From positions 1 through 27,659 of the IMG/VR virus record IMGVR_UViG_3300036792_000120: a stretch of DNA of 27,659 nucleotides; one strand, given 5' to 3'. Positions 2,360 to 24,196 of this stretch are shown here, in pieces (the stretch's first letter is position 1; the number at the start of each line of letters is the position of its first letter). A program made the position numbers and the translations under genes. The DNA comes from a virus. Below the pieces are notes generated by a model that had not been told where the DNA came from, searched no databases, and worked only from the letters and a program-made list of their open reading frames with translations.

Positions 2360-4612
2360 TCATATCGAAATCTCCATGCCGAGTTCGGGAATCGTCAGCG
2401 TACCCGGCGTATCCTTGATGATCGCAACGCGCGGGTCATAGGAGTAACCGGACGGTCTCCACTCCTCGACGGTCTCGCGCAACGGTGGCGGCAGCGTCGG
2501 ATTGTCGCCCTGATTCCACGTCGTTACTCGGCGGATGTTCATGACCGTTCCGAGCGCCGGAGACGTCGGCGTGAGTTTTCCGCTAAACAGCTTTGCAAAA
2601 TAGAACCCTGTTGAGTTGATGACGTAAGCCGCAAAGAACGATATCCGCCGCGGCAACATCCGCTGGTGCATGTCCGGCCCGGACGGTTCGTCACCCGGGA
2701 AAGGCTCAGCAATCATCGTCCACGGCAGGCCAGCAACCAGCGACGCCGCCGCGAGGTTTTCACCGCCATTGTTTTGCGGAATGATGAATCCATTGGCGTC
2801 GATCTGGTAGGTGCCCATCGCGCGGTTGACCTGATCCATCAGCGCCACGCTTTGCGAAGCCCAGAACCACAGCGGTCCTTTGCCGCCGGGCGGAGCGAAC
2901 GGAGCAGGCATCGCATTCACGAAAACCGCGCTGTCAAGATAGAGCGTGTCATCCAGTCGTTCGCAAATCCCCTGACCAAGGTAGGTCGAGGTGAAATGCA
3001 CATCGCCATTCCATGCCGATACCCATTGCGTCGTGCCTGCCCCGCCCCACGGCCCCCAGCCGATCTTGGGTATCTCGGCGCCGCCGCGAATGTCTCCTAG
3101 GTTATATTTTCCTACCACTAGCGAGCCGTTCGCATTCAACACGTAGGCATATCGCTCGTTGAACTGACCGTCGGCCGTCGGGATTGCAATCGCCGTGATG
3201 CCGCTGAACAGATGCTGATGGAAATCGGTCAGGCTCTTGGTGCGGAACGGCCGGTAGTAGTCGCCAACCGCAACAATAACCATCATGCTATTCGCGCCAG
3301 CGTTGGCGTAGACAATCACTTCTTGCGACTTGCGCGGTTGCACATTCGCGGCGCCATCGCTCGACAGCAATTGAAACTGCACACTGCCTGGTTTCAACGG
3401 GTTGGTCGGCGAGATCGGAATGTAATAGATCACGCCGTCGCAGAACACGAATTCCGAACTCTCCGCGCCGGGCACCACATCCTGCACTTTGGCCTGCGCC
3501 GGGATAAGTTCGAACATCGCATTGTCAGGAGCAACGTTGCTGGCATCCGTATAAAGATCGTTCTGCGCATTAATGGCCGACCACGAAACCCCGCGCGGCA
3601 CATCTGGAAATCCACAAAAGCCAAGCCTGAATTGATCGGTAAACACCGAGGACGGAAATCCTCGGAAACTATTCATGACCTCATCATCCCACACAGCGAT
3701 AGCCTGCGGACTGCCCGTGGTTATTGCGGTGATGTTGCTTGATGCAGCCGGTCCTACCAGTTCTTCGCCGACCGCGAACGAAGTGCCGGTGATAGGCTGG
3801 ACTGTCAGAGTGGAGGATCCAACGCCGAACACGATACCCTTCGCGCCGCTCGTTTTGCCTATCACTTCAGTTCCAATTTGAAAACCAGCCGTGCTGCCAA
3901 CCGCTATGGAGTCGCTTCCGATAAGCGTTTCCTCGACCGTCGCGTTAATGACGGTCGAACTCACCATGGTACCGAGCAGAATTTGGCTATTGATGTAGCG
4001 AATCCGCGTACCGTTCATCGCCGACGTCACGATCGGGGAGGAAAACGTCACGGTGATAGCGCCGGTCGTCGCGCTTGGCAGCGCCGTGATATTGGGAGGA
4101 GTGATGCGATAGAACGGGGTACGCTTTTGGCCGGTAACGATGACGGTTTCGGTATAGTCTGCGATCGACCAAACCGAAACGCCATCCCACGACACGACCT
4201 GCGGGCGCATCGAATTGCCAAAGCAGATCGTGATGGTCAGCCCGAAAATGGCCCAGCGGATTGAATATATGTCGGTTGCAGTAGCCCACGGCAGCGCGGC
4301 GCCCCCGCCCTGCAGCGTGAACGATTGCAGGACCGCGCCGGCGTCGCTGATGATCTGAAGCAGGCCGGCCGCAAAGCCGATCTTGAAGTTATTGCCAGGC
4401 GAGATCGTGAACTTCTCGATGCGCACGTCCGTCGTCGGGAACAGCGCCCGGCGCCCCGGGCGGTTCTGAAACCCGCCAGCATTGAGAATGCGCGCGTTGG
4501 TCATCTGGCGCAGGCCGCCCTTGCGCGCGGGATGGGTATCGTTGCGCTTCAGGTCAACGTCGACTTCGCCGAACGAGAAATCGGTCTGCGAGCCCTGAAT
4601 TTGTTTTGGCAT
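2360..4612 (-). CDS. Tail tubular protein B-like (tail nozzle) protein
   Basis: This 750-residue protein has an N-terminal pattern typical of podovirus nozzle proteins: a conserved opening with DLKR, then GLRQMTNARI and GGFQNRPGRRALFP (about residues 20-58). The rest is beta-rich with many short Gly/Ser/Thr stretches. The middle part (about 190-300) is rich in Thr/Ser/Val and may be an inserted domain. In T7 the equivalent (gp12) forms the distal tube through which DNA leaves the capsid. It follows the gp11-like gene by 12 bases with AGGGGTG 6 bases before ATG, and precedes the internal virion genes, the standard order. The call is a family-level inference from the N-terminal motif and context. 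Confidence 0.65.
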   Translation of the reverse strand: MPKQIQGSQTDFSFGEVDVDLKRNDTHPARKGGLRQMTNARILNAGGFQNRPGRRALFPTTDVRIEKFTISPGNNFKIGFAAGLLQIISDAGAVLQSFTLQGGGAALPWATATDIYSIRWAIFGLTITICFGNSMRPQVVSWDGVSVWSIADYTETVIVTGQKRTPFYRITPPNITALPSATTGAITVTFSSPIVTSAMNGTRIRYINSQILLGTMVSSTVINATVEETLIGSDSIAVGSTAGFQIGTEVIGKTSGAKGIVFGVGSSTLTVQPITGTSFAVGEELVGPAASSNITAITTGSPQAIAVWDDEVMNSFRGFPSSVFTDQFRLGFCGFPDVPRGVSWSAINAQNDLYTDASNVAPDNAMFELIPAQAKVQDVVPGAESSEFVFCDGVIYYIPISPTNPLKPGSVQFQLLSSDGAANVQPRKSQEVIVYANAGANSMMVIVAVGDYYRPFRTKSLTDFHQHLFSGITAIAIPTADGQFNERYAYVLNANGSLVVGKYNLGDIRGGAEIPKIGWGPWGGAGTTQWVSAWNGDVHFTSTYLGQGICERLDDTLYLDSAVFVNAMPAPFAPPGGKGPLWFWASQSVALMDQVNRAMGTYQIDANGFIIPQNNGGENLAAASLVAGLPWTMIAEPFPGDEPSGPDMHQRMLPRRISFFAAYVINSTGFYFAKLFSGKLTPTSPALGTVMNIRRVTTWNQGDNPTLPPPLRETVEEWRPSGYSYDPRVAIIKDTPGTLTIPELGMEISI

Positions 4613-14280: not shown

Positions 14281-14517
14281 TCACGACACCCGGCGACCGT
14301 TAACGGCCTTGATACGCTTTCCTGCGACTGGAACATGGGGCAAGCTCGCTTCGGATAAGTGCGCCGCCGCGATCTCGACCTTCAACGTATCCAGTACGGT
14401 GCGCGCAAACCCGATATGAACGCGTGCCTCAGCGTGCGTGAGCTTGCCGTCTTCCAGCTTTTTCCACAGGCTCAGCATCTTTTCTCGAACGTCTCCGGTA
14501 TCGACCAAGCTTGTCAT
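14281..14517 (-). CDS. Small helical protein, unknown function
   Basis: This 78-residue protein starts with ATG at 14517 after AAGGAG and a 6-base gap. That good ribosome site supports this start although it overlaps the preceding gene by 89 bases. It is mostly helical (REKMLSLWKKLEDGKLTHAE, then HIGFARTVLDTLKVEIAAAH) with a basic tail. No family is recognised. It is the last gene before the late-block leader. A regulatory or anti-terminator role would fit the place, but nothing in the protein shows it. Confidence 0.6.
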   Translation of the reverse strand: MTSLVDTGDVREKMLSLWKKLEDGKLTHAEARVHIGFARTVLDTLKVEIAAAHLSEASLPHVPVAGKRIKAVNGRRVS

Positions 14518-15127
14518 TTACTGCTCCTTGAAGGCCTGTGATAGATCGTGCCAAGCTGTCGGCCTCTTGCTCCAGCTTGGAGATTCTCTCGCGCTCGCGA
14601 CGTTGGGCAATGCTGCCGTCCTCTATCGGACGCCACGTGTCGGCAAAACACCAAGACTTGCCCTTGCAAATGTCTGCTTCAAGTGCCTCAGAAGCGACGG
14701 CAATTTCGCTCGAGTTGAGATAAAAACCACGGCCGTCGGACATCGGGAAAAACTCGCATCGATTTGGGTCTGCGGCCTCATCAACTAGCCAATAAAGCTG
14801 ATGTCGCGAACTCGCGACGAAGACTCCGAAAGGACGATTCTCGCCAATTACCCTTACGAGGTACGGCAGGGCGACGTCAGGAAATTCATCCAAGGAGATT
14901 TTGGAGATCGCAAGCTTGGCTATATCCCGCTTCCGACGCGCCTCGGTAAGCGTGGGAACATCACGAAGTGACCCCAGTCCATGCCAACGCTCGCGCCCAG
15001 CAACCCAATGCCGGTAGAACCAGCTCTTGGCGCGCTCGTTCGTAACTGTCAAATACAGGCCGCCCTGCGCGAAATACCTGCCGCGCTTCAAACGGGCTAA
15101 ATTGTCGGCGTGAGTTATGATCGGCAT
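14429..15127 (-). CDS. Orphan integrase arm-binding-like (DUF4102-type) domain protein
   Basis: This is a 232-residue protein. Residues about 9-78 follow the pattern of the N-terminal arm-DNA-binding domain of tyrosine integrases (DUF4102/PF13356 type): RGRYFAQGGLYLTVTNERAK, then SWFYRHWVAGRERWHGLGS, then a helix with TLTEARRKRD. What follows is not the core-binding or catalytic domain and has no R-H-R-Y series. There is a middle segment with FGVFVASSRHQLYWLVDE (about 100-117) and GRGFYL, a coiled coil (about 174-200), and a basic C-terminus. It therefore cannot recombine DNA but may bind it. It overlaps the preceding gene by 13 bases and the next by 89. The integrase lies 12 kb away. The domain call is by pattern only. 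Confidence 0.65.
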   Translation of the reverse strand: MPIITHADNLARLKRGRYFAQGGLYLTVTNERAKSWFYRHWVAGRERWHGLGSLRDVPTLTEARRKRDIAKLAISKISLDEFPDVALPYLVRVIGENRPFGVFVASSRHQLYWLVDEAADPNRCEFFPMSDGRGFYLNSSEIAVASEALEADICKGKSWCFADTWRPIEDGSIAQRRERERISKLEQEADSLARSITGLQGAVNDKLGRYRRRSRKDAEPVEKAGRRQAHAR

Positions 15128-15669
15128 GCCGTCTGCGCTTCCTTGCGTTCCCTCAATCGCTCCCGCATTGTCTTCCGATGCAGTTTCCAGCGTTTTTTAG
15201 CTGCTTTTCTCGCTATTTCCGTTCGATGCTCAGCGCTGAGCATAACCATCCGTTTCTGCGCTCCAAGCTTCCCGGACTCCGACATCACGGCAGGAGCTGC
15301 CCGCTCGATCATCCGCTTTGACACCCTGCGCCCCTGCGAATGTACCCGCTTGCCGTCCCTGCCCTCCCAGCGCGATTGCATGCGCTGTGCGGCCTCGAGG
15401 TTGATCTTCATTTCGAACTCGACCGCGAACAGTTCGGTGAAATCGTCGAACATCGCGGCTGAGAGCCCCTTGGCCCTGGTTGGCCCCAGTGCCTTGTCGG
15501 TGCGACCGTCGGCTATTCCGATCAGGTCGTCACAAACCTTGTTCGACAGCCCGAGCAGATCCTTGACGGTGCGGAATGCCTCGACCAGATCGTCATAGGT
15601 CCGAAACCGCGCGATTACCTCGCCGGCGGCTGGAACCGTAATGCTGGCCGCTGTTGTCAAGTTCACCAC
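15115..15669 (-). CDS. Conserved-type rhizobial prophage protein with helical N-domain
   Basis: This 184-residue protein has FRTYDDLVEAFRTVKDLLGL and SNKVCDDLIGIADGRTDKAL (about 22-61), which resembles a helix-turn-helix region, then FDDFTELFAVEFEMKINLEA, and a basic tail with SAEHRTEIARKAAKKRWK. Proteins like this recur in rhizobial prophages without assigned function; DNA binding is likely from the basic tail and N-terminal helices. The frame opens with two GTG codons (15669, 15666) directly at GGGGAG, so the TTG at 15660, 8 bases after GGAGG, may be the true start. It sits mid-operon between the arm-domain gene and a helical protein. Confidence 0.6.
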   Translation of the reverse strand: MVNLTTAASITVPAAGEVIARFRTYDDLVEAFRTVKDLLGLSNKVCDDLIGIADGRTDKALGPTRAKGLSAAMFDDFTELFAVEFEMKINLEAAQRMQSRWEGRDGKRVHSQGRRVSKRMIERAAPAVMSESGKLGAQKRMVMLSAEHRTEIARKAAKKRWKLHRKTMRERLRERKEAQTACRS

Positions 15670-15690
15670 CTCCCCGGCCGGCCGAACCGA

Positions 15691-16146
15691 TCAAGAACCG
15701 GCGGTGGTTTGGGCTTCACCACCGGTTTGAAACGTGGCCGCTTGCCCGACCTCCTGAGCGGGCTTTGGCGCATTGGCGTCACCCATACTGGGTTGAATGT
15801 TTTGGCTCACTGCCAGCTTCGGCTGCGAATCCCCGGAGCCGTTGACGGAGTTTCCCAGGACTTGGGCCGCGAATTTGAGATCGTCAGCGAGCTCGGTGAT
15901 TTGCGGTGTCAGGCCCTCGACGTCAGCGGCATGAGCCGGTGCCGCAGCGTTGAATGCCGCGTAGGCCCTATTCAGCCGTTCGATGTTTGCCGCGGCCGCG
16001 AGCGCATTTGCCTTCAGCCCCTTCAGTTCCATTGCCATCCTCTTGTTCCTCTCGTGGCGTTCGTTTTCGCGTGTGAATCTTGCGGCGATCAAATGCGCTT
16101 CCGCGATCCGGACAGCCTCGCCGAGCTGCGCGGTGAAATAGCTCAT
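15691..16146 (-). CDS. Helical protein with disordered tail, unknown function
   Basis: This 151-residue protein starts with an ATGA overlap to the tiny membrane ORF upstream. Residues 1-95 are strongly helical and Ala-rich (EAVRIAEAHLIAARFTRENE, LKANALAAAANIERLNRAYA), probably coiled coil. The last 45 are Pro/Gln/Gly-rich and disordered. No family is recognised. Single-strand binding proteins also have such acidic or polar tails, but no OB-fold pattern is visible. Confidence 0.55.
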   Translation of the reverse strand: MSYFTAQLGEAVRIAEAHLIAARFTRENERHERNKRMAMELKGLKANALAAAANIERLNRAYAAFNAAAPAHAADVEGLTPQITELADDLKFAAQVLGNSVNGSGDSQPKLAVSQNIQPSMGDANAPKPAQEVGQAATFQTGGEAQTTAGS

Positions 16147-16262: not shown

Positions 16263-16456
16263 TCCGCGGCCTCGTGGCTCGGCATATTCGCAAGCATTCG
16301 GCGTTCGATGCGGTTGAGGATATCCATAGCCTCGGCTCGGTCATCGAGGTCGACGAGGATGATGCCGTGAGCCTTGGCAAACTCGGCCTCGGCCAGATTG
16401 ATATCCGCGATCGTGGCCGCAATTGATGCCATGGCTGCCTCAGAATTGAAGGGCAT
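16259..16456 (-). CDS. Small acidic helical protein
   Basis: The ATG at 16456 has GGGAG 8 bases upstream, giving 65 residues. A longer frame to 16597 would be antisense-like reading of the helicase gene in another frame and lacks support. The protein is helical and acidic (ATIADINLAEAEFAKAHGII, LDDRAEAMDILNRIERRMLA). It overlaps the helicase 3' end by 17 bases. It is not recognised; a helicase accessory is possible by position. Confidence 0.55.
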   Translation of the reverse strand: MPFNSEAAMASIAATIADINLAEAEFAKAHGIILVDLDDRAEAMDILNRIERRMLANMPSHEAAE

Positions 16457-17288
16457 CTGAATCGCTCCCGTATTGTGGCGTGAAGCGGCCGGTGGCGGCT
16501 TCGACCGTGAAGTGGCATGTGCCGAGCTTGCCGGCGCCGATCTCGCGCACCTTGGCACTGATGACCTTAGCGGTGTTGTTGCCGGCGTCGCGGACAACGA
16601 TCAGGCCATTGTCGCATTTGTTGTACCAGTTCATCGATCCCTCGATGTCGGCAAGGCTCACAACGCGCCCACCGTTCGCGCTGATGGCCTTGGTGGGATG
16701 GGCCGCCACAATCACCACGGCGTTCATGGAGCGGCAGAAATCCTTGATCAGCATCAGGCAGCGGCCGATGTAATCGGTCATCATTTCATCGCGCTTGCGG
16801 GCGCGGTCGAGCTCATTCCATGGGTCGATGAACACCATCTCCGCGCGTCGGTTGGCAACCGCCCAGGCCGCGCGATCGAGCACCCAGTCGATGGTGTGCG
16901 CTGGCTCGTATTGCGCATGCGGGATCGCCGACTGGATGGTGCATTGGGATTGGCAGAAATGCTCGAATTGTCGCTTCGTGCCGCGCCAAATCTGGCTCAG
17001 TTTCTCCCGCATATGGTTCTCGTTTTCGGGAGCGTACAGGAACGAGCCGACGCTCTTTTCGAGCGCCATTTTCAGCAGCACGTTGAGCATGAAGGTCGAC
17101 TTGCCGTGGCCGGCGATGCCGGTGAGCACGACGAATTGTCCGAGGTAAAACTTGAATATTTCGTCGAGCTCAGGCCATCCCGAGCCAAACGCCTGCTGCG
17201 CAACGGATCCCCGCTGCGGCAGATCGGCGAGCGTGTATAGGCCAAGCGGCACGGATTGATCCGGAAAATCGACGACTTCAGCGCTCAC
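16440..17288 (-). CDS. RecA/DnaB-fold replicative helicase-like ATPase
   Basis: This 282-residue protein has a Walker A, GIAGHGKST (57-65), a motif FLYAPENENH (83-92) as in DnaB/Twinkle-type helicases, a Walker B MVFIDPWNEL (151-160), the sensor-like VVIVAAHPTK (191-200), and a C-terminal motif around SMNWYNKCDNGLIVVRD (218-234). This corresponds to the C-terminal motor of T7 gp4/Twinkle or DnaB. No primase or N-terminal DnaB domain is present, so it is a motor-only form. It would unwind DNA at the phage fork. It overlaps the DUF1376-type gene upstream (ATGA), an initiator-plus-helicase pair like lambda O-P or phage DnaC-DnaB modules. Confidence 0.82.
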   Translation of the reverse strand: MSAEVVDFPDQSVPLGLYTLADLPQRGSVAQQAFGSGWPELDEIFKFYLGQFVVLTGIAGHGKSTFMLNVLLKMALEKSVGSFLYAPENENHMREKLSQIWRGTKRQFEHFCQSQCTIQSAIPHAQYEPAHTIDWVLDRAAWAVANRRAEMVFIDPWNELDRARKRDEMMTDYIGRCLMLIKDFCRSMNAVVIVAAHPTKAISANGGRVVSLADIEGSMNWYNKCDNGLIVVRDAGNNTAKVISAKVREIGAGKLGTCHFTVEAATGRFTPQYGSDSDALQF

Positions 17289-17980
17289 AGAACCCCCTCA
17301 ATGCCGTTCCACTTGAAGCCGCCCTGTTCTGCGGCCGCGGCTTTCCGCTCTTTCGCTAGCTGGTTTTTCTTGGCGAGCGCGCCCTTCACGGCGTTGAACC
17401 AACTGCGCTGCTGACCGGCCCATTCGGTCATGGCAAGCAGCTCAGCACCGACGTCGATGTTGGGGAAATTGGCTTTCCACTGGTCAAAATGCTGCTGATT
17501 TAGCCGGATCACGCCGCTTTCGAACGCATAGATCTTGCCAGTCGACGGCGCGCCCTCTGGCGCCTCGTCTTCTTTCTTTGGTAATAGGTTATCGGTAGCT
17601 AGAGCATTGCTAGCTTCCGATTCTAGCAATGCTAGCTTTTTGCTAGGGTTTTGCTTGGCGTTTGCTTTAGCTTTGCCACCTTCCGAGCCAGCCTTTGCTC
17701 TCTTCTCGTAGTTCGCGTGCGATGTCTCCAAGTCTTTCGCGATACGCCCATGGTGCCACCCTGGTTGCTCGAAGAACTTCTCGAGGACCACCCTCTCCCG
17801 CTTCCACTCTGCCGACGTCATCCGCGCGATTGTCGCCAGCAGCTTGTCATCATCCGGCAGCGAGCCGGTTGACCAGTGATGAAACATTAGCAACAGGTAC
17901 GAGCCGAGAAGACCGCGATCGAGATGGCCGGTATCGCGCAGCAGATCGCCGATGTGGATTGGCATTTTCGGAGGGTTCAT
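17285..17980 (-). CDS. DUF1376-type replication protein (initiator/loader candidate)
   Basis: This 231-residue protein has an N-terminal domain of DUF1376 (YdaU) type: MPIHIGDLLRDTGHLDRGLL, then LLLMFHHWSTGSLPDDD (about 6-45), a winged-helix-like unit found in phage replication proteins. A basic linker (about 88-115) with KAKANAKQNPSKK follows, then a C-terminal helical part with FDQWKANFPNIDVGAELLA. It lies directly before the helicase gene and after RusA, overlapping both by 4 bases, which supports a role in origin recognition or helicase loading. The linker-coding DNA holds an 11-bp perfect inverted repeat and several GCTAG units. Confidence 0.75.
   Translation of the reverse strand: MNPPKMPIHIGDLLRDTGHLDRGLLGSYLLLMFHHWSTGSLPDDDKLLATIARMTSAEWKRERVVLEKFFEQPGWHHGRIAKDLETSHANYEKRAKAGSEGGKAKANAKQNPSKKLALLESEASNALATDNLLPKKEDEAPEGAPSTGKIYAFESGVIRLNQQHFDQWKANFPNIDVGAELLAMTEWAGQQRSWFNAVKGALAKKNQLAKERKAAAAEQGGFKWNGIEGVL
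17603..17633. repeat. Perfect 11-bp inverted repeat inside the replication gene
   Basis: AGCATTGCTAG (17603-17613) and CTAGCAATGCT (17623-17633) are separated by 9 bases. Further GCTAG/TAGCTA units lie on both sides (17595-17646). On the plus strand a T5 run follows at 17637-17641, so antisense transcription might stop here. It lies in the linker-coding part of the DUF1376-type gene, where sequence is free to vary. Confidence 0.6.
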
Positions 17981-18435
17981 GCGCAGCGTTCCTCCGAACG
18001 TCGAACCAGATCGGCCATGGTGAGAGGGGGCAGCGGCACCACCGTCACACGACAGCCGAACGGCGCCATGCCAAACTCGACTACCAGGCGGCGCATGTGC
18101 TTGGGGGAATCGTCCTCGATCAGTTCGATTTTGCGCAGATAGTCGATCAGCGCCTTGAGACCGTTGTCGAGGTCAATCCTGCTGAGCGTTTCGGACAGCA
18201 CCACCCGCAGCTCGAAACGCTGCACCTTGGCGAGCTTGAGCGGACTGTTGGCCCTGCCCTTCGCCGCGAGCACGTACGCATTCGCCACGTTGTGCCATGC
18301 CTTAACCTTCCGCACCGCCGACCAATCAACCCGACGTGTGCGGTTGACCGATGGCGGTGCGGGAAGATCCAGCACGATATCCGGCGGCGCCGCGAACGGC
18401 GGATCGGCCATGGATGGTGCGGCGGCGTGCTCCAT
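17977..18435 (-). CDS. rusA: RusA-family Holliday junction resolvase
   Basis: This 152-residue protein carries the RusA signature: SRIDLDNGLKALIDYLRKIE (85-104) with D88, D90, K94 and D98, then LIEDDSPKH (105-113). In the family these acidic residues bind metal and cut four-way junctions. An N-terminal PAPPSVNRTRR (26-35) matches the usual P-S-x-N-x-x-R start of the domain. It resolves branched DNA from replication or recombination before packaging. The ATG at 18435 overlaps the upstream stop (TGATG) and the end overlaps the next gene (ATGA). An in-frame ATG at 18411 is a possible later start. Confidence 0.85.
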   Translation of the reverse strand: MEHAAAPSMADPPFAAPPDIVLDLPAPPSVNRTRRVDWSAVRKVKAWHNVANAYVLAAKGRANSPLKLAKVQRFELRVVLSETLSRIDLDNGLKALIDYLRKIELIEDDSPKHMRRLVVEFGMAPFGCRVTVVPLPPLTMADLVRRSEERCA

Positions 18436-18983
18436 CAGTGCACCGGCGCTCCGGCAATGGCTTCCTCGAGATCGACCTGAGCGCCGGGGACTGCGGAATC
18501 CGGTGCCTCGGTCGGCCGCTTCTTCTTGAACGCGGCCATGAGCACGGTCTGGCCTTCATGCCAACCGTTGATCCAAAGCTGCTGAGCGTCCTGGGCCAGG
18601 TTCTTCGGAGGCTCGCAGGTATCGCCGGACATGCCGGCCGTCTTGCCATTCTCGAAGTTGTCGACCTGTGCTTGCTCGAATAGCTGCGGCTGTGATCCGA
18701 CCTTGAGGCCGGCCCACCGCGCGAGACGCTGGGCGCGTTCGAGCACACCCTTCATCTTCTTCGGATTGTCGGCGAGGATCATGTCCTTGATGTCGGCGAG
18801 TGCGCCCTTGCCGAGGTCAGACTTGGCGAGATCGGCGACTGCGGTGCGATCGGCCTTCGCCTTCTCGACCAAGGCATCCGCAGTTTCGTATTTCCGCTTG
18901 TGGTGCAGCGTGAGTGCGCGTTTCTCATCATCGGACAGCGACGAATTGTGCCCGATGCCGTTTCCTTCCTTCTTCTTAGCCAT
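18435..18983 (-). CDS. RMF-like domain protein
   Basis: The start at 18983 (ATG, GGAG with 6-base gap) is preferred over the TTG at 19016; it gives 182 residues. Residues 1-105 are helical and charged (DEKRALTLHHKRKYETADAL, KGALADIKDMIL). Residues 109-146 resemble ribosome modulation factor: FENGKTAGMSGD, a Cys and Pro pair, then WINGWHEGQ, paralleling the G-x-x-A-G-x-x-G ... W-x-x-G-W pattern of E. coli RMF. RMF dimerises 70S ribosomes in stationary phase. Whether this protein contacts ribosomes is unknown. It lies between a small ORF and RusA, tightly coupled to both. The pattern call is moderate; a DNA-metabolism role is the alternative. Confidence 0.6.
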   Translation of the reverse strand: MAKKKEGNGIGHNSSLSDDEKRALTLHHKRKYETADALVEKAKADRTAVADLAKSDLGKGALADIKDMILADNPKKMKGVLERAQRLARWAGLKVGSQPQLFEQAQVDNFENGKTAGMSGDTCEPPKNLAQDAQQLWINGWHEGQTVLMAAFKKKRPTEAPDSAVPGAQVDLEEAIAGAPVH

Positions 18984-19248
18984 AGATTGCTCCAGGTTGC
19001 CGGTTGTGGATGCCAAACACGACCCGCAAAATCTCCTCGATCTCGCGGTCGATCATTCCGTGCGGCGTTGTCAGACACAGCGGCAGCGGCTCATCTGATA
19101 GGCCGTAGAAACTGTCCGCCGCGTCACTGGGTTTGGGGGCCAGGGGCGAAGACGCGGCGGCGCTGTCTGCCGAAGGGCTCCCACCCCCAGCAAACTCTGC
19201 GAACGGATTTGGTAGCGCGGGCATGTGATGCTCAAAAGTTGCCGACAT
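18976..19248 (-). CDS. Small protein, unknown function
   Basis: This 90-residue ORF overlaps the RMF-like gene start by 8 bases. The N-terminal half is Ser/Ala/Pro-rich and disordered. The C-terminal half has CLTTPHGMIDREIEEILRVV, likely a strand plus helix. No ribosome site is evident before the ATG at 19248. It is not recognised and could be a leader gene for the replication operon. Confidence 0.5.
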   Translation of the reverse strand: MSATFEHHMPALPNPFAEFAGGGSPSADSAAASSPLAPKPSDAADSFYGLSDEPLPLCLTTPHGMIDREIEEILRVVFGIHNRQPGAIYG

Positions 19249-19286
19249 AAGGCTGCCGGCGCGCCACGCGGGACACTCAGAAAGGT

Positions 19287-19799
19287 CTACGTCTCGGCGG
19301 GTCCTGCCTTGCGGCGAACCAAGGGGCGATACGCTTCATGATGCGGTTGAGGCTGCGCGCTATAAAATTCCTCATCCTGAAAAAGAGCGGCATGCGGAAT
19401 CTGCGAGGCGAAGTCAGCATCGAGAAGCGCCTTCATTTTGCGACGGTGAATGCGTTGTGCGACGGCAAGATCGATGGCGCCGAAGAAGGCCTTGAGCTGA
19501 AGCCACCAGCGCGGGGTGGCATCTGTCATCACGCCAGCTAGAAATTCCCGGCCGTGATCGCTGTGCAGAAGCGCGACGAATGCGTCAGTCGGGATTTTAG
19601 AATTACCGGTCAGCCAATATTCGACCGTGCGAAGCGGATACCCGGTGATATCAGCGAGTTGCGCGGCCGTCTTTACAGGGAAAATCTCGCGCGCCTTGTC
19701 GACGATTTTCAAATTCGACCGCAGGAAGTTGCGTGATCGACCGCCAGAATTTGCGGTTCCAATTTTTGCAGAATTCGGCGCTCGCTGTGAAGGTTTCAT
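19287..19799 (-). CDS. HTH DNA-binding protein at the cII position
   Basis: The ATG at 19799 gives 170 residues; the frame is open further (to 19952), but that part overlaps the palindrome-rich gap and reads as Ala/Ser/Arg filler. A helix-turn-helix is visible at about 44-65, KTAAQLADITGYPLRTVEYW, with a following helix FVALLHSDHGREFLAGV. The C-terminal half has a basic helical part (AVAQRIHRRKMKALLD). The gene is the first after cro on the leftward operon and before the replication genes, the position of lambda cII or of a cI/cro-controlled activator. It may act on the palindromes upstream. That role is an inference from order. Confidence 0.65.
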   Translation of the reverse strand: MKPSQRAPNSAKIGTANSGGRSRNFLRSNLKIVDKAREIFPVKTAAQLADITGYPLRTVEYWLTGNSKIPTDAFVALLHSDHGREFLAGVMTDATPRWWLQLKAFFGAIDLAVAQRIHRRKMKALLDADFASQIPHAALFQDEEFYSAQPQPHHEAYRPLVRRKAGPAET

Positions 19800-20099
19800 C
19801 ACGCACTCACACTGTCGGGGGGTTTTGGATGTCGATCGAGCTTGAAGCGCTCTTGCGCAACGTGATCTGGCTGCTGCTGCAGCCGCGCTGTCCGCGCTGA
19901 TCGTTATCAATTTGATAATTTGGCTCGCGCGATGAAAGAATTTGTTCCCCAATGGAACATTGCGCGGCGCGGAATCGAAAGTTTCGCGATTCGAAAAATA
20001 AATGTGTGCTGGGCAGAGCGCGTGTGCTTTGCTGACCCTCTACTTTTGCGCTGGAGGGTTGGGAATGGGGAATGTGATTTTGTTTCCGAGGCGTCGGCG
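19800..20099. promoter_or_regulatory. 300-base palindrome-rich gap between cro and the HTH gene
   Basis: No gene is supported here. It holds three dyads: TTATCAA-T-TTGATAA (19904-19918), TGTTCC-N5-GGAACA (19943-19959) and GAATCG-N9-CGATTC (19972-19992) with an inner CGAAA-G-TTTCG. It also holds the strong ribosome site GGAGGG (20053-20058) and ATG (20065) of the long form of the plus-strand repressor frame. It probably contains regulator binding sites and perhaps a rightward establishment promoter. Confidence 0.5.
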
Positions 20100-20312
20100 T
20101 CATGCGCGCGCCTCGGCAGTCAGAGGGTCGGCCTCAAAATCGTCTGCTGTGACGGCGCCGTCCGAAAATTCTTTGAGCTTCTTGATCGTCGACCAGTCGG
20201 GTCGCACAACCTGGCGGCGAATACGGGACACGGTGACTCGGGAGCAGCCGATTGCCTCGGCCACAGCCTCATCCGACAGCGACCTTTCGGCCATGAAAAC
20301 TGACAGGTGCAT
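20100..20312 (-). CDS. Cro-like repressor
   Basis: From ATG at 20312 this is a 70-residue protein that is almost entirely one helix-turn-helix unit: LSDEAVAEAIGCSRVTVSRI (12-31), then DWSTIKKLKEFSDGAVTADD. Its size, single domain and divergence from the XRE repressor across an operator cluster are typical of Cro. The predicted -10 ends 6 bases before the ATG, so the mRNA would start at or next to the start codon. No ribosome site is visible before this ATG or the in-frame ATG at 20294. It would bind the same 17-bp sites and commit to lytic growth. Confidence 0.72.
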   Translation of the reverse strand: MHLSVFMAERSLSDEAVAEAIGCSRVTVSRIRRQVVRPDWSTIKKLKEFSDGAVTADDFEADPLTAEARA

Positions 20313-20318
20313 CGCTGA

Positions 20319-20348
20319 TATGTACACCGAGCGTACAATCCCCGTCAA
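20319..20348 (-). promoter_or_regulatory. Leftward early promoter (cro and replication operon)
   Basis: On the minus strand there is TTGACG (20348-20343), an 18-base spacer, then TACATA (20324-20319). Operator O1 begins 5 bases after the -35 box and covers the spacer and most of the -10. The layout is identical to the rightward promoter at 21361. Confidence 0.65.
20321..20337. promoter_or_regulatory. Operator O1
   Basis: TGTACACCGAGCGTACA is a 17-bp site with perfect outer arms TGTAC/GTACA. It overlaps the leftward early promoter. Centre at 20329. Confidence 0.7.
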
Positions 20349-20355
20349 GACAAAA

Positions 20356-20372
20356 CGTACACCCGGTGTTCT
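20356..20372. promoter_or_regulatory. Operator O2
   Basis: CGTACACCCGGTGTTCT is a variant site in which ACACC-C-GGTGT is perfectly symmetric and one outer arm is degenerate. Centre at 20364, 35 bases from O1. Confidence 0.6.
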
Positions 20373-20390
20373 GTACAGGGAAGACGATCC

Positions 20391-20407
20391 CGTGCACGAT
20401 GTGTACA
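20391..20407. promoter_or_regulatory. Operator O3
   Basis: CGTGCACGATGTGTACA has one good half site (TGTACACA on the minus strand) and one weaker (CGTGCACG). Centre at 20399, again 35 bases from O2. It covers the proposed repressor start codon, which would permit self-repression. Confidence 0.6.
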
Positions 20408-20802
20408 TGCCTGTAAAGAAAGCGAAAAAGCCCCAGAAGGTGATCTCGCGGCTGAAGCGGCCGAGCTTTCAGCCGACCAAAATCAAGGAATGTCGGGAGC
20501 AAAAAAATCTCTCGCAGGAGCAACTCGCCTACCATGTCGGCGAATACCTGGCTGAAAGAGGCCTTGCCAAGGGCTACAGCTATTCCATGATAGGCCGGCT
20601 CGAGCGGGGGAAGGTGCGGTATACCCAGCCCATAATGGAGGCCATAGCCGACGCGCTGGGCGTTGACGTACCTACGCTTATCGTGGGGCCGCGCGAGCAG
20701 CACGCTCCCCCACCGTTCTGGAGCGAGGCCACTCCAGAGGAGCGAGAAAAGCTGGCTGAATATGCCCAATTCTTGGCGAGAAAAGCCGGAACCGCCGCAT
20801 GA
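20392..20802 (+). CDS. XRE-family phage repressor (CI-like), no cleavage domain
   Basis: The GTG at 20392 follows AGGGAAG by 8 bases and gives 136 residues; an ATG at 20407 is an alternative. After a basic N-terminal arm (KKAKKPQK) comes an XRE helix-turn-helix, residues about 29-97: IKECREQKNLSQEQLAYHVG, then SYSMIGRLERGK and MEAIADALGVDVPTLI. Residues after 98 form a short Pro then helical tail. There is no S24/LexA-like peptidase part, so induction cannot be by RecA-stimulated self-cleavage. The frame is open far upstream: an ATG at 20065 with GGAGGG 6 bases before it would give 245 residues, the extra part lying antisense to cro. Operators O1-O3 precede or overlap the short start. It would hold both early promoters off. 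Confidence 0.75.
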   Translation: MHDVYMPVKKAKKPQKVISRLKRPSFQPTKIKECREQKNLSQEQLAYHVGEYLAERGLAKGYSYSMIGRLERGKVRYTQPIMEAIADALGVDVPTLIVGPREQHAPPPFWSEATPEEREKLAEYAQFLARKAGTAA

Positions 20803-20915
20803 GGACGACTGTAATAAAAAAGCTGATCCGCAGGAAGCCTAGACCCGCGAAGCCCGCAGAACCTGAGCCCAATTTCACGCCGGAGCCACTGGATCCGACG
20901 AACCATCCGGATTGA
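20799..20915 (+). CDS. Tiny basic/proline-rich ORF (38 aa)
   Basis: This ORF starts with an ATGA overlap to the repressor stop. It encodes a basic N-terminal half (KKLIRRKPRPAK) and a Pro/Glu/Asn-rich tail. It is too short for the usual gene callers. Coupling suggests that it is translated; function unknown. Confidence 0.4.
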   Translation: MRTTVIKKLIRRKPRPAKPAEPEPNFTPEPLDPTNHPD

Positions 20916-20917
20916 AC

Positions 20918-21031
20918 GTGGGGCATTACGCACTTGTTGCTGCACTGATTGCACCGCTGGCCGGTATGCCGGTCGCTGCCTTACTCGTCGTGCTCAGAGC
21001 GTTTAAAAATGGTCCTGACAATCGAACTTGA
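20918..21031 (+). CDS. Tiny membrane ORF (37 aa)
   Basis: The GTG at 20918 (or TTG at 20912, which overlaps the previous stop) opens an ORF with one hydrophobic helix (YALVAALIAPLAGMPVAALL) and a basic tail. It resembles a single-span membrane protein. No clear ribosome site is present, so confidence is low. Confidence 0.35.
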   Translation: MGHYALVAALIAPLAGMPVAALLVVLRAFKNGPDNRT

Positions 21032-21155
21032 TGTTTGCATCGTCGTCTTTTACGTGATCGGCGGCCTTTCGCGAGCAATCAGGTGGGGCTGCTTTCGTGC
21101 GGTGAACCGCCACGAGGGGAAACCTCCGTTTCTGACCCCCATGCCTAAGCGCTGA
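21009..21155 (+). CDS. Tiny membrane ORF (48 aa)
   Basis: ATG at 21009, overlapping the previous ORF by 23 bases. It has a hydrophobic segment (LDVCIVVFYVIGGL) and then a basic tail (RAIRWGCFRAVNRHEGK). Coding status is uncertain; it belongs to a run of four short ORFs between the repressor and the second operator pair. Confidence 0.35.
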   Translation: MVLTIELDVCIVVFYVIGGLSRAIRWGCFRAVNRHEGKPPFLTPMPKR

Positions 21156-21158
21156 CCC

Positions 21159-21332
21159 GTGGAACTTTTGTTCCTCGCTCCCATCGTGATCGGTATAGCT
21201 ATCAAGCCGCCGAAGATGGGCGACCTCAAGATCTTGTTTGACGCCGAATTTTGCAGGATTGCCCTCCCCGTCGCGCTGTTAATCTGGCCGGCCTACGGCT
21301 TCCTGATTCTGCTGCTCCTCAACGTCCGCTAA
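21159..21332 (+). CDS. Small membrane protein (57 aa)
   Basis: GTG at 21159, open for 57 codons, with two hydrophobic segments (ELLFLAPIVIGIAI and IALPVALLIWPAYGFLILLL) separated by a short polar loop with KPPKMGDLK. The topology is a small two-span hairpin, known for exclusion or holin-like proteins. It ends 5 bases before operator O4. As part of the repressor-side transcript it could be made in lysogens. Confidence 0.45.
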   Translation: MELLFLAPIVIGIAIKPPKMGDLKILFDAEFCRIALPVALLIWPAYGFLILLLLNVR

Positions 21333-21337
21333 ATTCT

Positions 21338-21354
21338 CGTACACCTCGTGCACA
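21338..21354. promoter_or_regulatory. Operator O4
   Basis: CGTACACCTCGTGCACA matches the operator pattern with one weaker half. It lies upstream of the rightward early promoter; centre at 21346, 34 bases from O5. Confidence 0.65.
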
Positions 21355-21360
21355 TTTCGC

Positions 21361-21390
21361 TTGACGAATGATGTACACCTCGCGTACAAC
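21361..21390 (+). promoter_or_regulatory. Rightward early promoter
   Basis: TTGACG (21361-21366), an 18-base spacer, then TACAAC (21385-21390). Transcription should start near 21397, shortly before GGAGGT (21403-21408) and the ATG at 21414. It drives the recombination and excision genes. Confidence 0.68.
21372..21388. promoter_or_regulatory. Operator O5
   Basis: TGTACACCTCGCGTACA is a perfect TGTAC-N7-GTACA site within the rightward promoter, starting 5 bases after the -35 box, as O1 does in the leftward promoter. Confidence 0.72.
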
Positions 21391-21413: not shown

Positions 21414-21695
21414 ATGGCTGATATCCCCTTCACCCAATACCTGATGCCGAACGGTCGCCGGTCGCCGGTCACGATCGACCGACCGGACGACATCGCGGCA
21501 AAGGCCCAAGCGATCATCGAGCGCGGTTATCGCTTCGAATGCGAGATGCTGTCGGATTACTCGACCGTCAGCCTGACCATTGCGGACGATGATGACGACC
21601 ACGAAATCGAGGTGGTGCCGAACGGTCCCGAGGTGCCTACCGCGATTGATCGGATGATCGAACGCTTCGCCACAAAGCTCGCGGTGTCCGCATGA
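21414..21695 (+). CDS. Small acidic protein, first gene of rightward early operon
   Basis: This 93-residue protein starts 5 bases after GGAGGT, a strong ribosome site. It has a beta-like pattern (FTQYLMPNGRRSPVTIDRP), a helix (IAAKAQAIIERGYRFECEML), an acidic run of five Asp (DDDDDHE, about 59-65) and a C-terminal helix. Similar small proteins open early operons in rhizobial prophages but I know no function for them. Being the first gene under the repressed promoter, it is made at once on induction. A role in blocking a host process is possible but not shown. Confidence 0.68.
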   Translation: MADIPFTQYLMPNGRRSPVTIDRPDDIAAKAQAIIERGYRFECEMLSDYSTVSLTIADDDDDHEIEVVPNGPEVPTAIDRMIERFATKLAVSA

Positions 21696-21937
21696 ACCGG
21701 ACCGCCAACGAGCGCGGCGATGCCCTCCCGCACCGGCTCGATACCGCAATTCCGCTCGCGGTAGATATTGCCCTGCTCGCGCGCGATCCCGCGGTGAGCC
21801 TCACGGCCGCCGCGGGTTTGATCGAGCAGTACGCCCGCACACGAGCCAGTGAAGCTGCTGCCGACGCGGTTCTCGAAACGGGCAACCGGCTGATCGCGGC
21901 GATCGACGCTCCACTCGCACGGAAGGAACCCGTGTGA
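21692..21937 (+). CDS. Small Ala-rich helical protein
   Basis: This 81-residue protein starts by ATGA overlap with the previous gene. It is Ala-rich and helical throughout (LAVDIALLARDPAVSLTAAA, ARTRASEAAADAVLETGNRL). It is not recognised and has no membrane segment. The end overlaps the next tiny ORF (TGATG). Confidence 0.55.
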   Translation: MNRTANERGDALPHRLDTAIPLAVDIALLARDPAVSLTAAAGLIEQYARTRASEAAADAVLETGNRLIAAIDAPLARKEPV

Positions 21938-22062
21938 TGCGCAAGCCCGATGTGGTGGAAGTCGTCGCGATTGCCGTCCCGCTGCTGGTGGAGGCCGTCG
22001 CCGTTTTCATGTTCATCGCGATGGTGGCTGTGTGGATAGCGCTGGGGAGCGGTCAGCTATGA
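21937..22062 (+). CDS. Tiny membrane protein (41 aa)
   Basis: The TGATG overlap with the gene upstream and ATGA overlap with the next support translation. It has a short polar start (MRKPDVVE), then one long hydrophobic segment rich in Val/Ala/Phe (about 9-35), ending SGQL. It is probably a single-span membrane protein of unknown role. Confidence 0.5.
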   Translation: MRKPDVVEVVAIAVPLLVEAVAVFMFIAMVAVWIALGSGQL

Positions 22063-22139
22063 ATGGCTTGCCCTTCGCCTTCGTCATCAGCGGCTGGATG
22101 TGGCTCGGGCTGTTCCTACTCGCGAGAGCGGTCATCTGA
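22059..22139 (+). CDS. Tiny membrane peptide (26 aa)
   Basis: An ATG in an ATGA overlap opens a 26-codon ORF, nearly all hydrophobic (FAFVISGWMWLGLFLLARAV), ending in a TGATG overlap with the zinc-ribbon gene. The exact chaining at both ends suggests translation, at least as a coupling peptide. Confidence 0.42.
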   Translation: MNGLPFAFVISGWMWLGLFLLARAVI

Positions 22140-22477
22140 TGCGCGCGCCGGCAAAGCCAATGCAGGCCTACTGCCGACGCTGCGAGAAGCTGTTTTGCTA
22201 CTTCATGACGAATGCCCGGCGCGTGTTCTGCGGGCCGTGCGTCGAGCTAGAGCGAGCCGATCACGACGAGTTCTATCGCCAACAACGTCTCAAACAAGCA
22301 GCGGTGAGGTTCCATGAAAATCGACAAGCCGGGAATTTATTTCGGCGTTTCCGAGGCCGATTACCGGGCGGATCCCTGCCCTTCGCCGAGTCTTACACAA
22401 TCGCTGGTCAAGACGCTGATCGAGCGGAGCCCGCGCCATGCGTGGACGGAATGCCCGCGGCTAAATCCGCAGTTTGA
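22139..22477 (+). CDS. Zinc-ribbon protein overlapping the nuclease gene
   Basis: This 112-residue ORF starts at a TGATG overlap. Residues 11-39 hold two CxxC pairs: YCRRCEKLF and FCGPCVELE, a small zinc ribbon, followed by a charged helix (ERADHDEFYRQQRLKQ). The last 55 codons run inside the next gene in another frame and may be passive. Such short zinc proteins in early operons often bind DNA or host proteins. No family name is certain. Confidence 0.55.
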   Translation: MRAPAKPMQAYCRRCEKLFCYFMTNARRVFCGPCVELERADHDEFYRQQRLKQAAVRFHENRQAGNLFRRFRGRLPGGSLPFAESYTIAGQDADRAEPAPCVDGMPAAKSAV

Positions 22478-23222
22478 GTATGACGACGACACCAAGTTCG
22501 ATCTCGGAAACGTCGCGCATCGCCTGATGCTTGGCCGCGGCAAGGAAATCGAAGTCGTGCAATTTGCCGACTGGCGCACCAAGGTCGCCCAGGAAGCACG
22601 CGAGACCGCCGCCGACGCCGGCAAGATCGCCGTTCTCCAGCACCAGTTCGAGCAGGCAGCCGAGATGGTCGAGGCCGCGCGCCGACAACTCGCCAAGCAT
22701 GAGGATAACGATGCGTTCGCCGACGGCGCCGGCGAGGTCATGATCTGCTGGCAGGAGGACGGCATCTGGTTCCGATCGCTGATCGATTGGCTGCACACCG
22801 ATCTGCGCACCGTGGATGACTACAAGACCTCGGGCATGTCGATGGCGCCGCATATCATCGGCATGCGCGCGGAGGCGGCGGGCTGGCACGTTCAGGCAGC
22901 GTTTATCGGGAGAGGGCTCGATATCCTCGACCCGGCCGGTGCCGGGCGTCGCCGTTACCGTTTCATCGGCCAGGAGACGGACAAGCCGCATGCGCTGACC
23001 GTCATGCACATGGATGAGCATTGGCTCACGATGGGCCGCAAGAAAGTGCAGGCCGGCGTTGCCTTCTGGGGCGTGTCCAGCAAGCTCGGCAAATGGCCGT
23101 CCTATCCAGCGCGCGCGGTCGTTCCCGAATATCCCAGCTTCAAGGAAAAACAGTGGCTTGAGCGCGAGCTCGCCGGCGACTTCGAGGCGATGAACGACAA
23201 ATCCTTGATGTTTGCAGGTTGA
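22314..23222 (+). CDS. PD-(D/E)XK nuclease, RecE/exonuclease VIII-like (DUF3799 type)
   Basis: This 302-residue protein shows the PD-(D/E)XK exonuclease order: GNVAHRLMLG with H69, E141 in GEVMICWQEDG, D158 in FRSLIDWL, and VDDYKTSG (168-174) with D169 and K171. A later helix AEAAGWHVQAAFI (about 186-198) corresponds to the C-terminal QxxxY-like motif of this group. The length fits DUF3799/RecE-type nucleases, which resect DNA ends 5' to 3' for phage recombination. The next gene is an ATPase of recombinase type, its natural partner. ATG at 22314 has GAGGTTCC just upstream. It overlaps the zinc-ribbon ORF by 164 bases. Confidence 0.8.
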   Translation: MKIDKPGIYFGVSEADYRADPCPSPSLTQSLVKTLIERSPRHAWTECPRLNPQFEYDDDTKFDLGNVAHRLMLGRGKEIEVVQFADWRTKVAQEARETAADAGKIAVLQHQFEQAAEMVEAARRQLAKHEDNDAFADGAGEVMICWQEDGIWFRSLIDWLHTDLRTVDDYKTSGMSMAPHIIGMRAEAAGWHVQAAFIGRGLDILDPAGAGRRRYRFIGQETDKPHALTVMHMDEHWLTMGRKKVQAGVAFWGVSSKLGKWPSYPARAVVPEYPSFKEKQWLERELAGDFEAMNDKSLMFAG

Positions 23223-23224
23223 CC

Positions 23225-24196
23225 ATGAATTATCACGCAGTCCCAGCAGTCCGCTCCGAAGAACCTCTGCTACTCGGCATGATCGGGCCGCCCGGCGGCG
23301 GCAAGACGCTATCCAGCCTCAAGGTTGCGAAGGGCATCCAGTCCGTGCGCGGCGGCGACATCATCGTCATCGACACCGAGGGCGGCCGCTCGCGCAAATA
23401 CAACGATCAGATCCCGTTCAGCATCGTCGAGTTGCCGCCGGGCGCGCGTTCGGACGCCTTCCTTGATGCAATCAATGCCCAGCTTCCATCGAAGCCGGCC
23501 GCGATCGTGATCGATTCCGCGTCTGATGAACACGAAGCCTATCTCGAATGGCACGACGAGATGGTGCCGAAGATGGGCAACAACGAATGGGCCGCCTGGG
23601 CGAAGCCGAAAGCGGCGCGCAAAAAGCTGATCTCAGGAATACTCAAGATCAAGGTGCCGCTGATTTTCACGTTCCGAGCTCGGGAAAAGACCAAGCAGGA
23701 TGTCGTGAACGGCAAGAAAACGGTCGTTAACATCGGCTGGCAGCCGGTGGCGCCGCTCGAAATCGTTCACACGCTCGACCTGACGTGCATTCTTCCTCCG
23801 CGCGCCGATGGCGTGCCGGTATGGAAGTCCGACAAGATCGGCGAAGATTTCATCATCAAGCTCCCGAATTACCTCGCGCCATACATCGAGCAAGGCAAGC
23901 CGCTTGACGAGCGGATGGGTGCCGCGTTTGCGCGATGGGCGCGAGGTGACGACACCGCCAGCGCGGTGAAGTCGGCGACGTCATCTCCTATTGTCCCGGC
24001 AGGACAGGGTGACGTCGCCGACGATAAATCTGCAGCCGAGTGGGATGTCGAGCTCGGCGAGGAAGCCAAGAAGGGCACCGATGCTCTGCAAAAGTTCTGG
24101 CTCACAATTCCCCGCGTGCATCAGACGACGCTCAAGTCTGCGCTCGATCGTCGGCACAAGGCCACCGCCGCGCAAGCCGATCAGGTGTCGGCATGA
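23225..24196 (+). CDS. Sak4-like RecA-fold ATPase (single-strand annealing/recombinase type)
   Basis: The ATG at 23225 is preferred to the TTG at 23219. It has a Walker A at GPPGGGKTLS (21-30), then IIVIDTEGGRSRKY (46-59), Walker B AAIVIDSASDE (92-102), and later the sensor-like VPLIFTFRAREKTK, followed by a C-terminal part with LALKS-type helical composition (about 270-324). This is the AAA_24/Sak4 pattern of phage-encoded recombination ATPases. With the nuclease it forms an end-resection and annealing pair. No single-strand binding protein is obvious beside them. The 324 residues include an extra acidic and Ala-rich tail compared with the core domain. Confidence 0.78.
   Translation: MNYHAVPAVRSEEPLLLGMIGPPGGGKTLSSLKVAKGIQSVRGGDIIVIDTEGGRSRKYNDQIPFSIVELPPGARSDAFLDAINAQLPSKPAAIVIDSASDEHEAYLEWHDEMVPKMGNNEWAAWAKPKAARKKLISGILKIKVPLIFTFRAREKTKQDVVNGKKTVVNIGWQPVAPLEIVHTLDLTCILPPRADGVPVWKSDKIGEDFIIKLPNYLAPYIEQGKPLDERMGAAFARWARGDDTASAVKSATSSPIVPAGQGDVADDKSAAEWDVELGEEAKKGTDALQKFWLTIPRVHQTTLKSALDRRHKATAAQADQVSA

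Follow-up and report, generated by a model that had tools for sequence, protein, structure and literature searches.

A probable lambda-type immunity region with five TGTAC-type operators, conserved in related phages

An XRE-family regulator gene lies between two outward-facing promoters in a 27,659-base viral record (the whole of this stretch is here called the window), and the two promoters carry the same operator composite, which raises the question of whether this locus is the lysis-lysogeny switch of a temperate phage. In phage lambda, 17-bp operators lie at two outward early promoters around the repressor gene, one set overlaps the repressor promoter, and the cI mRNA is leaderless. Our sequence analysis indicates that the region is very probably a lambda-type immunity region, i.e., the lysis-lysogeny switch of a temperate phage, and that the XRE gene probably encodes the prophage repressor. 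The arrangement is real and conserved, and it is a new example of a long-known type of switch.

The composite TTGACG-N5-TGTAC-N7-GTACA occurs in exactly two copies in the window, which face outward, and every coordinate given for them by the first-pass annotation proved correct (Table 1), as did the 18-base spacer between -35 and -10 at both promoters and the location of the -10 within or beside the operator. The exact TGTAC-N7-GTACA word was found twice in the window and never in 100 dinucleotide shuffles, while the full composite, present in two exact copies, is expected only 0.07 times even when three mismatches are allowed; the twin composite is not a chance occurrence. The -10 hexamers TACATA and TACAAC are weak matches to TATAAT, with three and four of the six bases, respectively. 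Judged by gene order, the leftward promoter is the equivalent of lambda PR, as it is followed by cro, replication and structural genes, and the rightward one is the equivalent of PL, leading into RecE/Sak4-type recombination genes.

Table 1. Features of the putative immunity region and its flanks (window coordinates)
Feature	Position	Strand	Description
Leftward early genes after Cro	16440..20103	-	RusA-like 17977-18435, DUF1376 17285-17980, DnaB-like AAA 16440-17288
Cro-like HTH protein	20100..20312	-	70 aa, Pfam HTH_26, ATG 8 nt past O1, no Shine-Dalgarno
Leftward early promoter	20319..20348	-	TTGACG 20348-20343, five bases, O1, TACATA 20324-20319, 18-base spacer
O1	20321..20337		TGTACACCGAGCGTACA (minus-strand reading, 20337-20321, TGTACGCTCGGTGTACA), covers spacer/-10 of leftward promoter; exact TGTAC-N7-GTACA; matrix 24.9, best in window
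O2	20356..20372 (centre 20364)		CGTACACCCGGTGTTCT, weak; 35 bp from O1; matrix 6.8, rank 5
O3	20391..20407 (centre 20399)		CGTGCACGATGTGTACA, 70 bp from O1; matrix 13.5
XRE-family repressor (probable)	20407..20802	+	131 aa, HTH_3, no S24 peptidase, ATG at O1 start +86
Tiny ORFs after repressor	20799..21332	+	Read from sequence; several overlapping, some apparently membrane proteins
O4	21338..21354 (centre 21346)		CGTACACCTCGTGCACA, 34 bp upstream of O5; matrix 16.1, rank 3
Rightward early promoter	21361..21390	+	TTGACG 21361-21366, five bases, O5, TACAAC 21385-21390, 18-base spacer
O5	21372..21388		TGTACACCTCGCGTACA, over rightward spacer/-10; exact match; matrix 24.4, rank 2
First rightward genes	21414..24196	+	Two small ORFs, exonuclease VIII-like 22314-23222, Sak4/AAA 23219-24196

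A weight matrix trained on other phages, with the window left out, ranked O1, O5, O4, O3 and O2, in this order, as the five best sites in the window; the mean maximum score in shuffled windows was 8.5. The further operators O2, O3 and O4 were present at the centres proposed for them, with spacings of 35, 35 and 34 bp, and the matrix scan detected no sixth operator near either promoter, which gives five sites in a 3+2 arrangement. The consensus of the 17-bp operator is TGTAC[G/A]CC-N-GG[C/T]GTACA. O2 has three mismatches, and its score alone does not reach genome-wide significance, as a window is expected to contain about 1.8 sites with a score of 6 or more; its support comes from its register and from the relatives. 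GTAC was found at the O2 position in the family members recovered by the composite search described below, which did not use O2, and the site is weak and only half conserved. A palindrome with the 5-7-5 format of the operators and another word, TGTTCCCCAATGGAACA, lies downstream of the Cro-like gene at 19943-19959.

The first-pass annotation had placed the repressor-side genes at 20392-21332, between the promoters; this placement stands, and the start of the repressor has to be moved, as the ATG at 20407 is the most likely one and not a site near 20392. The gene is divergent from that of the Cro-like protein, for which tblastn to relatives gave 22 homologous loci at 41-68% identity. The aligned members of the repressor family have 91-131 aa. 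Only HTH families match the XRE repressor, with no S24 self-cleaving domain among the matches, and repressor cleavage of the lambda type, driven by RecA, is therefore not expected; from its sequence, RecA-stimulated self-cleavage of this protein is unlikely. The HTH folds of the XRE and Cro-like proteins were predicted at pLDDT 87 and 85, respectively, and are nearest to C-proteins, the 434 and P22 repressors (P22 c2 for the XRE model), SinR and DdrO, with weak Foldseek E-values (0.002 and above). Searches of viral contigs with the XRE and Cro proteins returned no matches, whereas the DNA operator pattern succeeded. The Cro-like protein had no tblastn match in the phages collection, though the isolated phage Yong-M4-211 encodes one, and the repressor had no match in plasmids and no NCBIfam model at cut-off.

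Ahead of the repressor ATG, 24 of the 25 TGTAC-type loci have a hexamer of the form NANNNT at positions -12 to -7, which puts an A at -11 and a T at -7, and the 25th (L045) fits the pattern if its second ATG, at +88, is the start. These are the two most important positions of a -10 element. The hexamer preceding the repressor ATG has the form CANNNT, and its A and T are kept also where O3 is not recognisable. In the window, O3 overlaps the putative repressor -10 (CACGAT, 20395-20400) and the A of the ATG. In most loci O3 is a distinct variant with a CGTGCA left half and T at position 10, a base that is rare there in O1, and the -11 and -7 bases within it deviate from the operator consensus. 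No Shine-Dalgarno sequence precedes the repressor start in any of 28 cases, and the Cro ATG is located within about 0-3 nt of the expected leftward transcription start. The repressor transcript would start at its AUG, so that O3 would serve as operator, -10 and start codon at once, and leaderless or nearly leaderless mRNAs are probable for both regulators. A precedent is phage PY54, in which the cI and cro mRNAs both start at the AUG, as determined by RACE (PMC4488713).

The first-pass annotation had suggested scanning related prophages for the 17-bp pattern, and a scan of viral contigs recovered a family of immunity regions with the same plan. The composite DNA pattern, searched in 2.9 million viral contigs, gave 19 loci, 12 of them with a Cro/XRE pair and the same geometry, and a second pattern, which ran from O1 across the -35 into the beginning of O2, recovered 25 loci, a set that overlaps with the first. 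With chance matches and duplicates excluded, and with L046 and L047 counted after inspection, the module is common to 24 loci and the isolated phage Yong-M4-211 (OM868079.1). The pattern matches in L033 (Pseudonocardia) and L036 were discarded as chance, since no Cro/XRE homologue occurs there. In nearly all loci the distance from O1 to the Cro ATG is 7-10 nt (12 in L042) and the repressor ATG is at +85 or +86 from the O1 start (+88 for the second ATG of L045). O1 and O3 are 69-70 bp apart where O3 is recognisable, and O4 and O5 are 34-36 bp apart; most loci have TTGAC some 10-11 nt ahead of O5, and two Bradyrhizobium-type loci have a weaker -35 there. The right-hand operator pair was present in 20 of the 22 loci tested, and an automated geometry scan found no match in 581,620 shuffled bases. 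The patterns by which most relatives were retrieved fix some operator bases, and the conservation of these is in part a product of that choice; retrieval does not constrain the offsets, the central CC/GG, sites O3-O5 or the proteins. Apart from Cro and XRE, loci with the same operators have little in common with the window. Yong-M4-211, recorded as a Synechococcus phage (L057, OM868079.1 11497-16832), has the same operator word and geometry, with the repressor ATG at +85, the Cro ATG at +9, 69 bp between O1 and O3 and 35 bp between O4 and O5. In the stretch of its record that was read, neither the Cro gene nor the operators are annotated, and the annotated start of the repressor lies upstream of the conserved ATG. 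Apart from this case, the module was found in phages of rhizobial type and in environmental contigs, and the recorded host of Yong-M4-211 may deserve a check. Among openly licensed PMC papers we found no published description of the TGTAC operator.

The lambda-like layout proposed earlier is conserved not only in these about 25 loci but also in an integrated Bradyrhizobium prophage with an integrase. The module occurs in a 949-kb contig of Bradyrhizobium japonicum in8p8, where leftward structural genes, including a connector (PF12236) and terminase, lie on one side and a phage integrase followed by apparent host genes on the other, which supports its reading as a prophage. From such relatives we infer that the window phage is temperate. 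The host-side scan found the exact pattern in 1 of 265 genomes of the genus Bradyrhizobium, where it is uncommon at that stringency. The window phage has head-tail-connector structural genes of the podovirus type, and its host is probably alphaproteobacterial.

The RusA-like assignment in the leftward operon is based on sequence and tblastn to relatives, and further leftward lie genes for terminase, head-tail connector, major head protein and tail proteins. On the right, the small ORF at 21414 has a GGAGGT ribosome site. The leftward early and first rightward genes are predicted to be silenced in the lysogen. The XRE stop overlaps the ATG of the next ORF, and the tiny ORFs at 20799-21332 could be genes expressed in lysogeny, placed like rexAB of lambda. 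We recognised no integrase in the window, which is a fragment. A 232-aa protein encoded inside the leftward operon (14429-15127, minus strand) has an integrase-type arm DNA-binding domain (PF13356, E 1.8e-9) and no integrase catalytic domain.

We propose that an XRE dimer would bind the 17-bp palindromes and, at O1 and O5, block RNA polymerase at both outward early promoters, silencing the leftward cro, replication and late genes and the rightward recombination genes. Lambda OR2 lies at -42, and O2, with its centre at about -43 from the inferred repressor start, would hold the same activating position. Filling of O3, which covers the repressor -10 and start codon, would switch off repressor synthesis, and the divergent Cro-like protein may bind the same word, chiefly at O3, and so commit the phage to lysis. 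What we show is the sequence, its geometry and conservation, and the protein families; binding and repression, autoregulation, activation by way of O2, leaderless starts and the order of filling among the sites are inferred.

As in lambda, divergent repressor and Cro genes have operators between them, a second cluster lies at the other promoter, and the repressor gene is located between the clusters; the sites are likewise 17 bp long, the promoters flanking the repressor face outward, and one set lies over the repressor promoter. In contrast to lambda, which has six operators (three on each side) 23-24 bp apart and a CI with a self-cleaving C-terminal domain of the S24 type, five sites stand here in a 34-35 bp register, that domain is absent, and the gene order is mirrored. 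We read the 3+2 plan as closest to that of phages N15 and PY54. In N15, phiKO2 and PY54, the repressor and cro genes diverge from a region with three operators, and two more operators lie at a second operon; in N15 and phiKO2 the sites are of 16 bp, TA-N10-TA, and OL controls repA of the plasmid prophage (PMC4488713, PMC4997575). The immB-like number of three OR and two OL sites is thus present, whereas the operator is the 17-bp TGTAC-N7-GTACA instead of TA-N10-TA, the register is 34-35 bp, the second operon has RecE/Sak4-type recombination genes in place of repA, and a relative is chromosomal, beside an integrase, rather than a linear plasmid prophage.

Phages sharing the RecE of the window lack the TGTAC word, and two of them appear to be heteroimmune versions of the switch. 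L006 (8547-8974) and L007 (6360-6785) have the same geometry, with the Cro ATG at +9, the repressor ATG at +85 and 34 bp between O4 and O5, built on TTTTAGCCCAGCTAAAA-type (TTTTAG-type) dyads, and in L006 TTGACG and five bases precede O5. An arginine in the recognition helix is found in 16 of 16 aligned TGTAC-type repressors and 16 of 16 TGTAC-type Cro proteins, and it is replaced in both regulators of L006 and L007; it is suggestive, from only two loci, that operator word and recognition helices change together. In the Rhizobium phages RHph_N2 and RHph_Y1_10 the repressor has 42% identity over 56% of the query, a 17-bp dyad lies 8 nt from the Cro ATG and 85 nt from the repressor ATG, and related dyads occur at the rightward promoter, but the operator word is of the GTAACACC/GTCACA type and not TGTAC. 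In Rhizobium phage RHph_I1_23 (L058), TTCAGTC repeats at 2370-2390 and 3680-3696 flank the repressor, perhaps as a further operator word.

The arginine common to XRE and Cro also bears on how the sites are shared, as the repressor might bind O1-O5 and Cro only O3. The Cro of phiKO2 binds only OR3 (PMC4997575), so that shared binding by Cro cannot be assumed, and with PY54 as a further precedent (PMC4488713, PMC4997575) and O3 a distinct variant in most loci, this division of sites is a serious contender; the embedded -10 accounts for the distinct bases of O3 equally well, the common arginine speaks against it, and we consider it somewhat improbable. Far less credible is control by a host regulator such as LexA, which would make the locus an SOS-controlled promoter pair. 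The alphaproteobacterial LexA box, GTTC-N7-GTTC, has the 4-7-4 format that GTAC-N7-GTAC formally resembles, and the repressor is without a RecA-cleavable domain. The conserved site is, however, an inverted repeat over its full length, in which the inner CC/GG and the outer T/A are conserved, and not a direct repeat. Where its word changes, the recognition helices encoded by the neighbouring phage genes change as well, and GTTC-N7-GTTC is absent from the window; we rejected this reading. One GAAC-N7-GAAC match to the LexA format, GAACCGATCAAGAAC, lies at 15684-15698, just upstream of the ORF at 15115-15669, and about one is expected by chance. That the pair is a decayed or non-phage one (e.g., toxin-antitoxin or restriction-controller) is less probable still, as its fold matches do include restriction-modification C-proteins and HipB/HigA antitoxins, but it sits between divergent phage replication/structural and recombination operons, has the same placement in the Bradyrhizobium prophage, and adjoins no recognised toxin or restriction gene.

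Within the immunity-switch reading, we put forward a broader proposal, which we hold to be nearly as likely right as wrong. The window would belong to a widespread environmental family of temperate phages with one rigid scaffold, i.e., five 17-bp sites in a 34-35 bp register, leaderless regulators and one operator fused to the repressor -10 and start codon. Only the operator word and the helices would vary (TGTAC, TTTTAG and the words of the Rhizobium phages), giving heteroimmunity, and induction would proceed without RecA-driven cleavage of the repressor. The analysis yields a precisely defined candidate operator and a predicted regulon for phages that are largely uncultured, together with a DNA signature by which their immunity regions can be located directly. 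The loci with the same geometry and a different word form a natural series for the joint change of repressor helix and operator, and the lack of a cleavable domain in the repressor makes the induction of these prophages a point of interest for a lambda-style switch.
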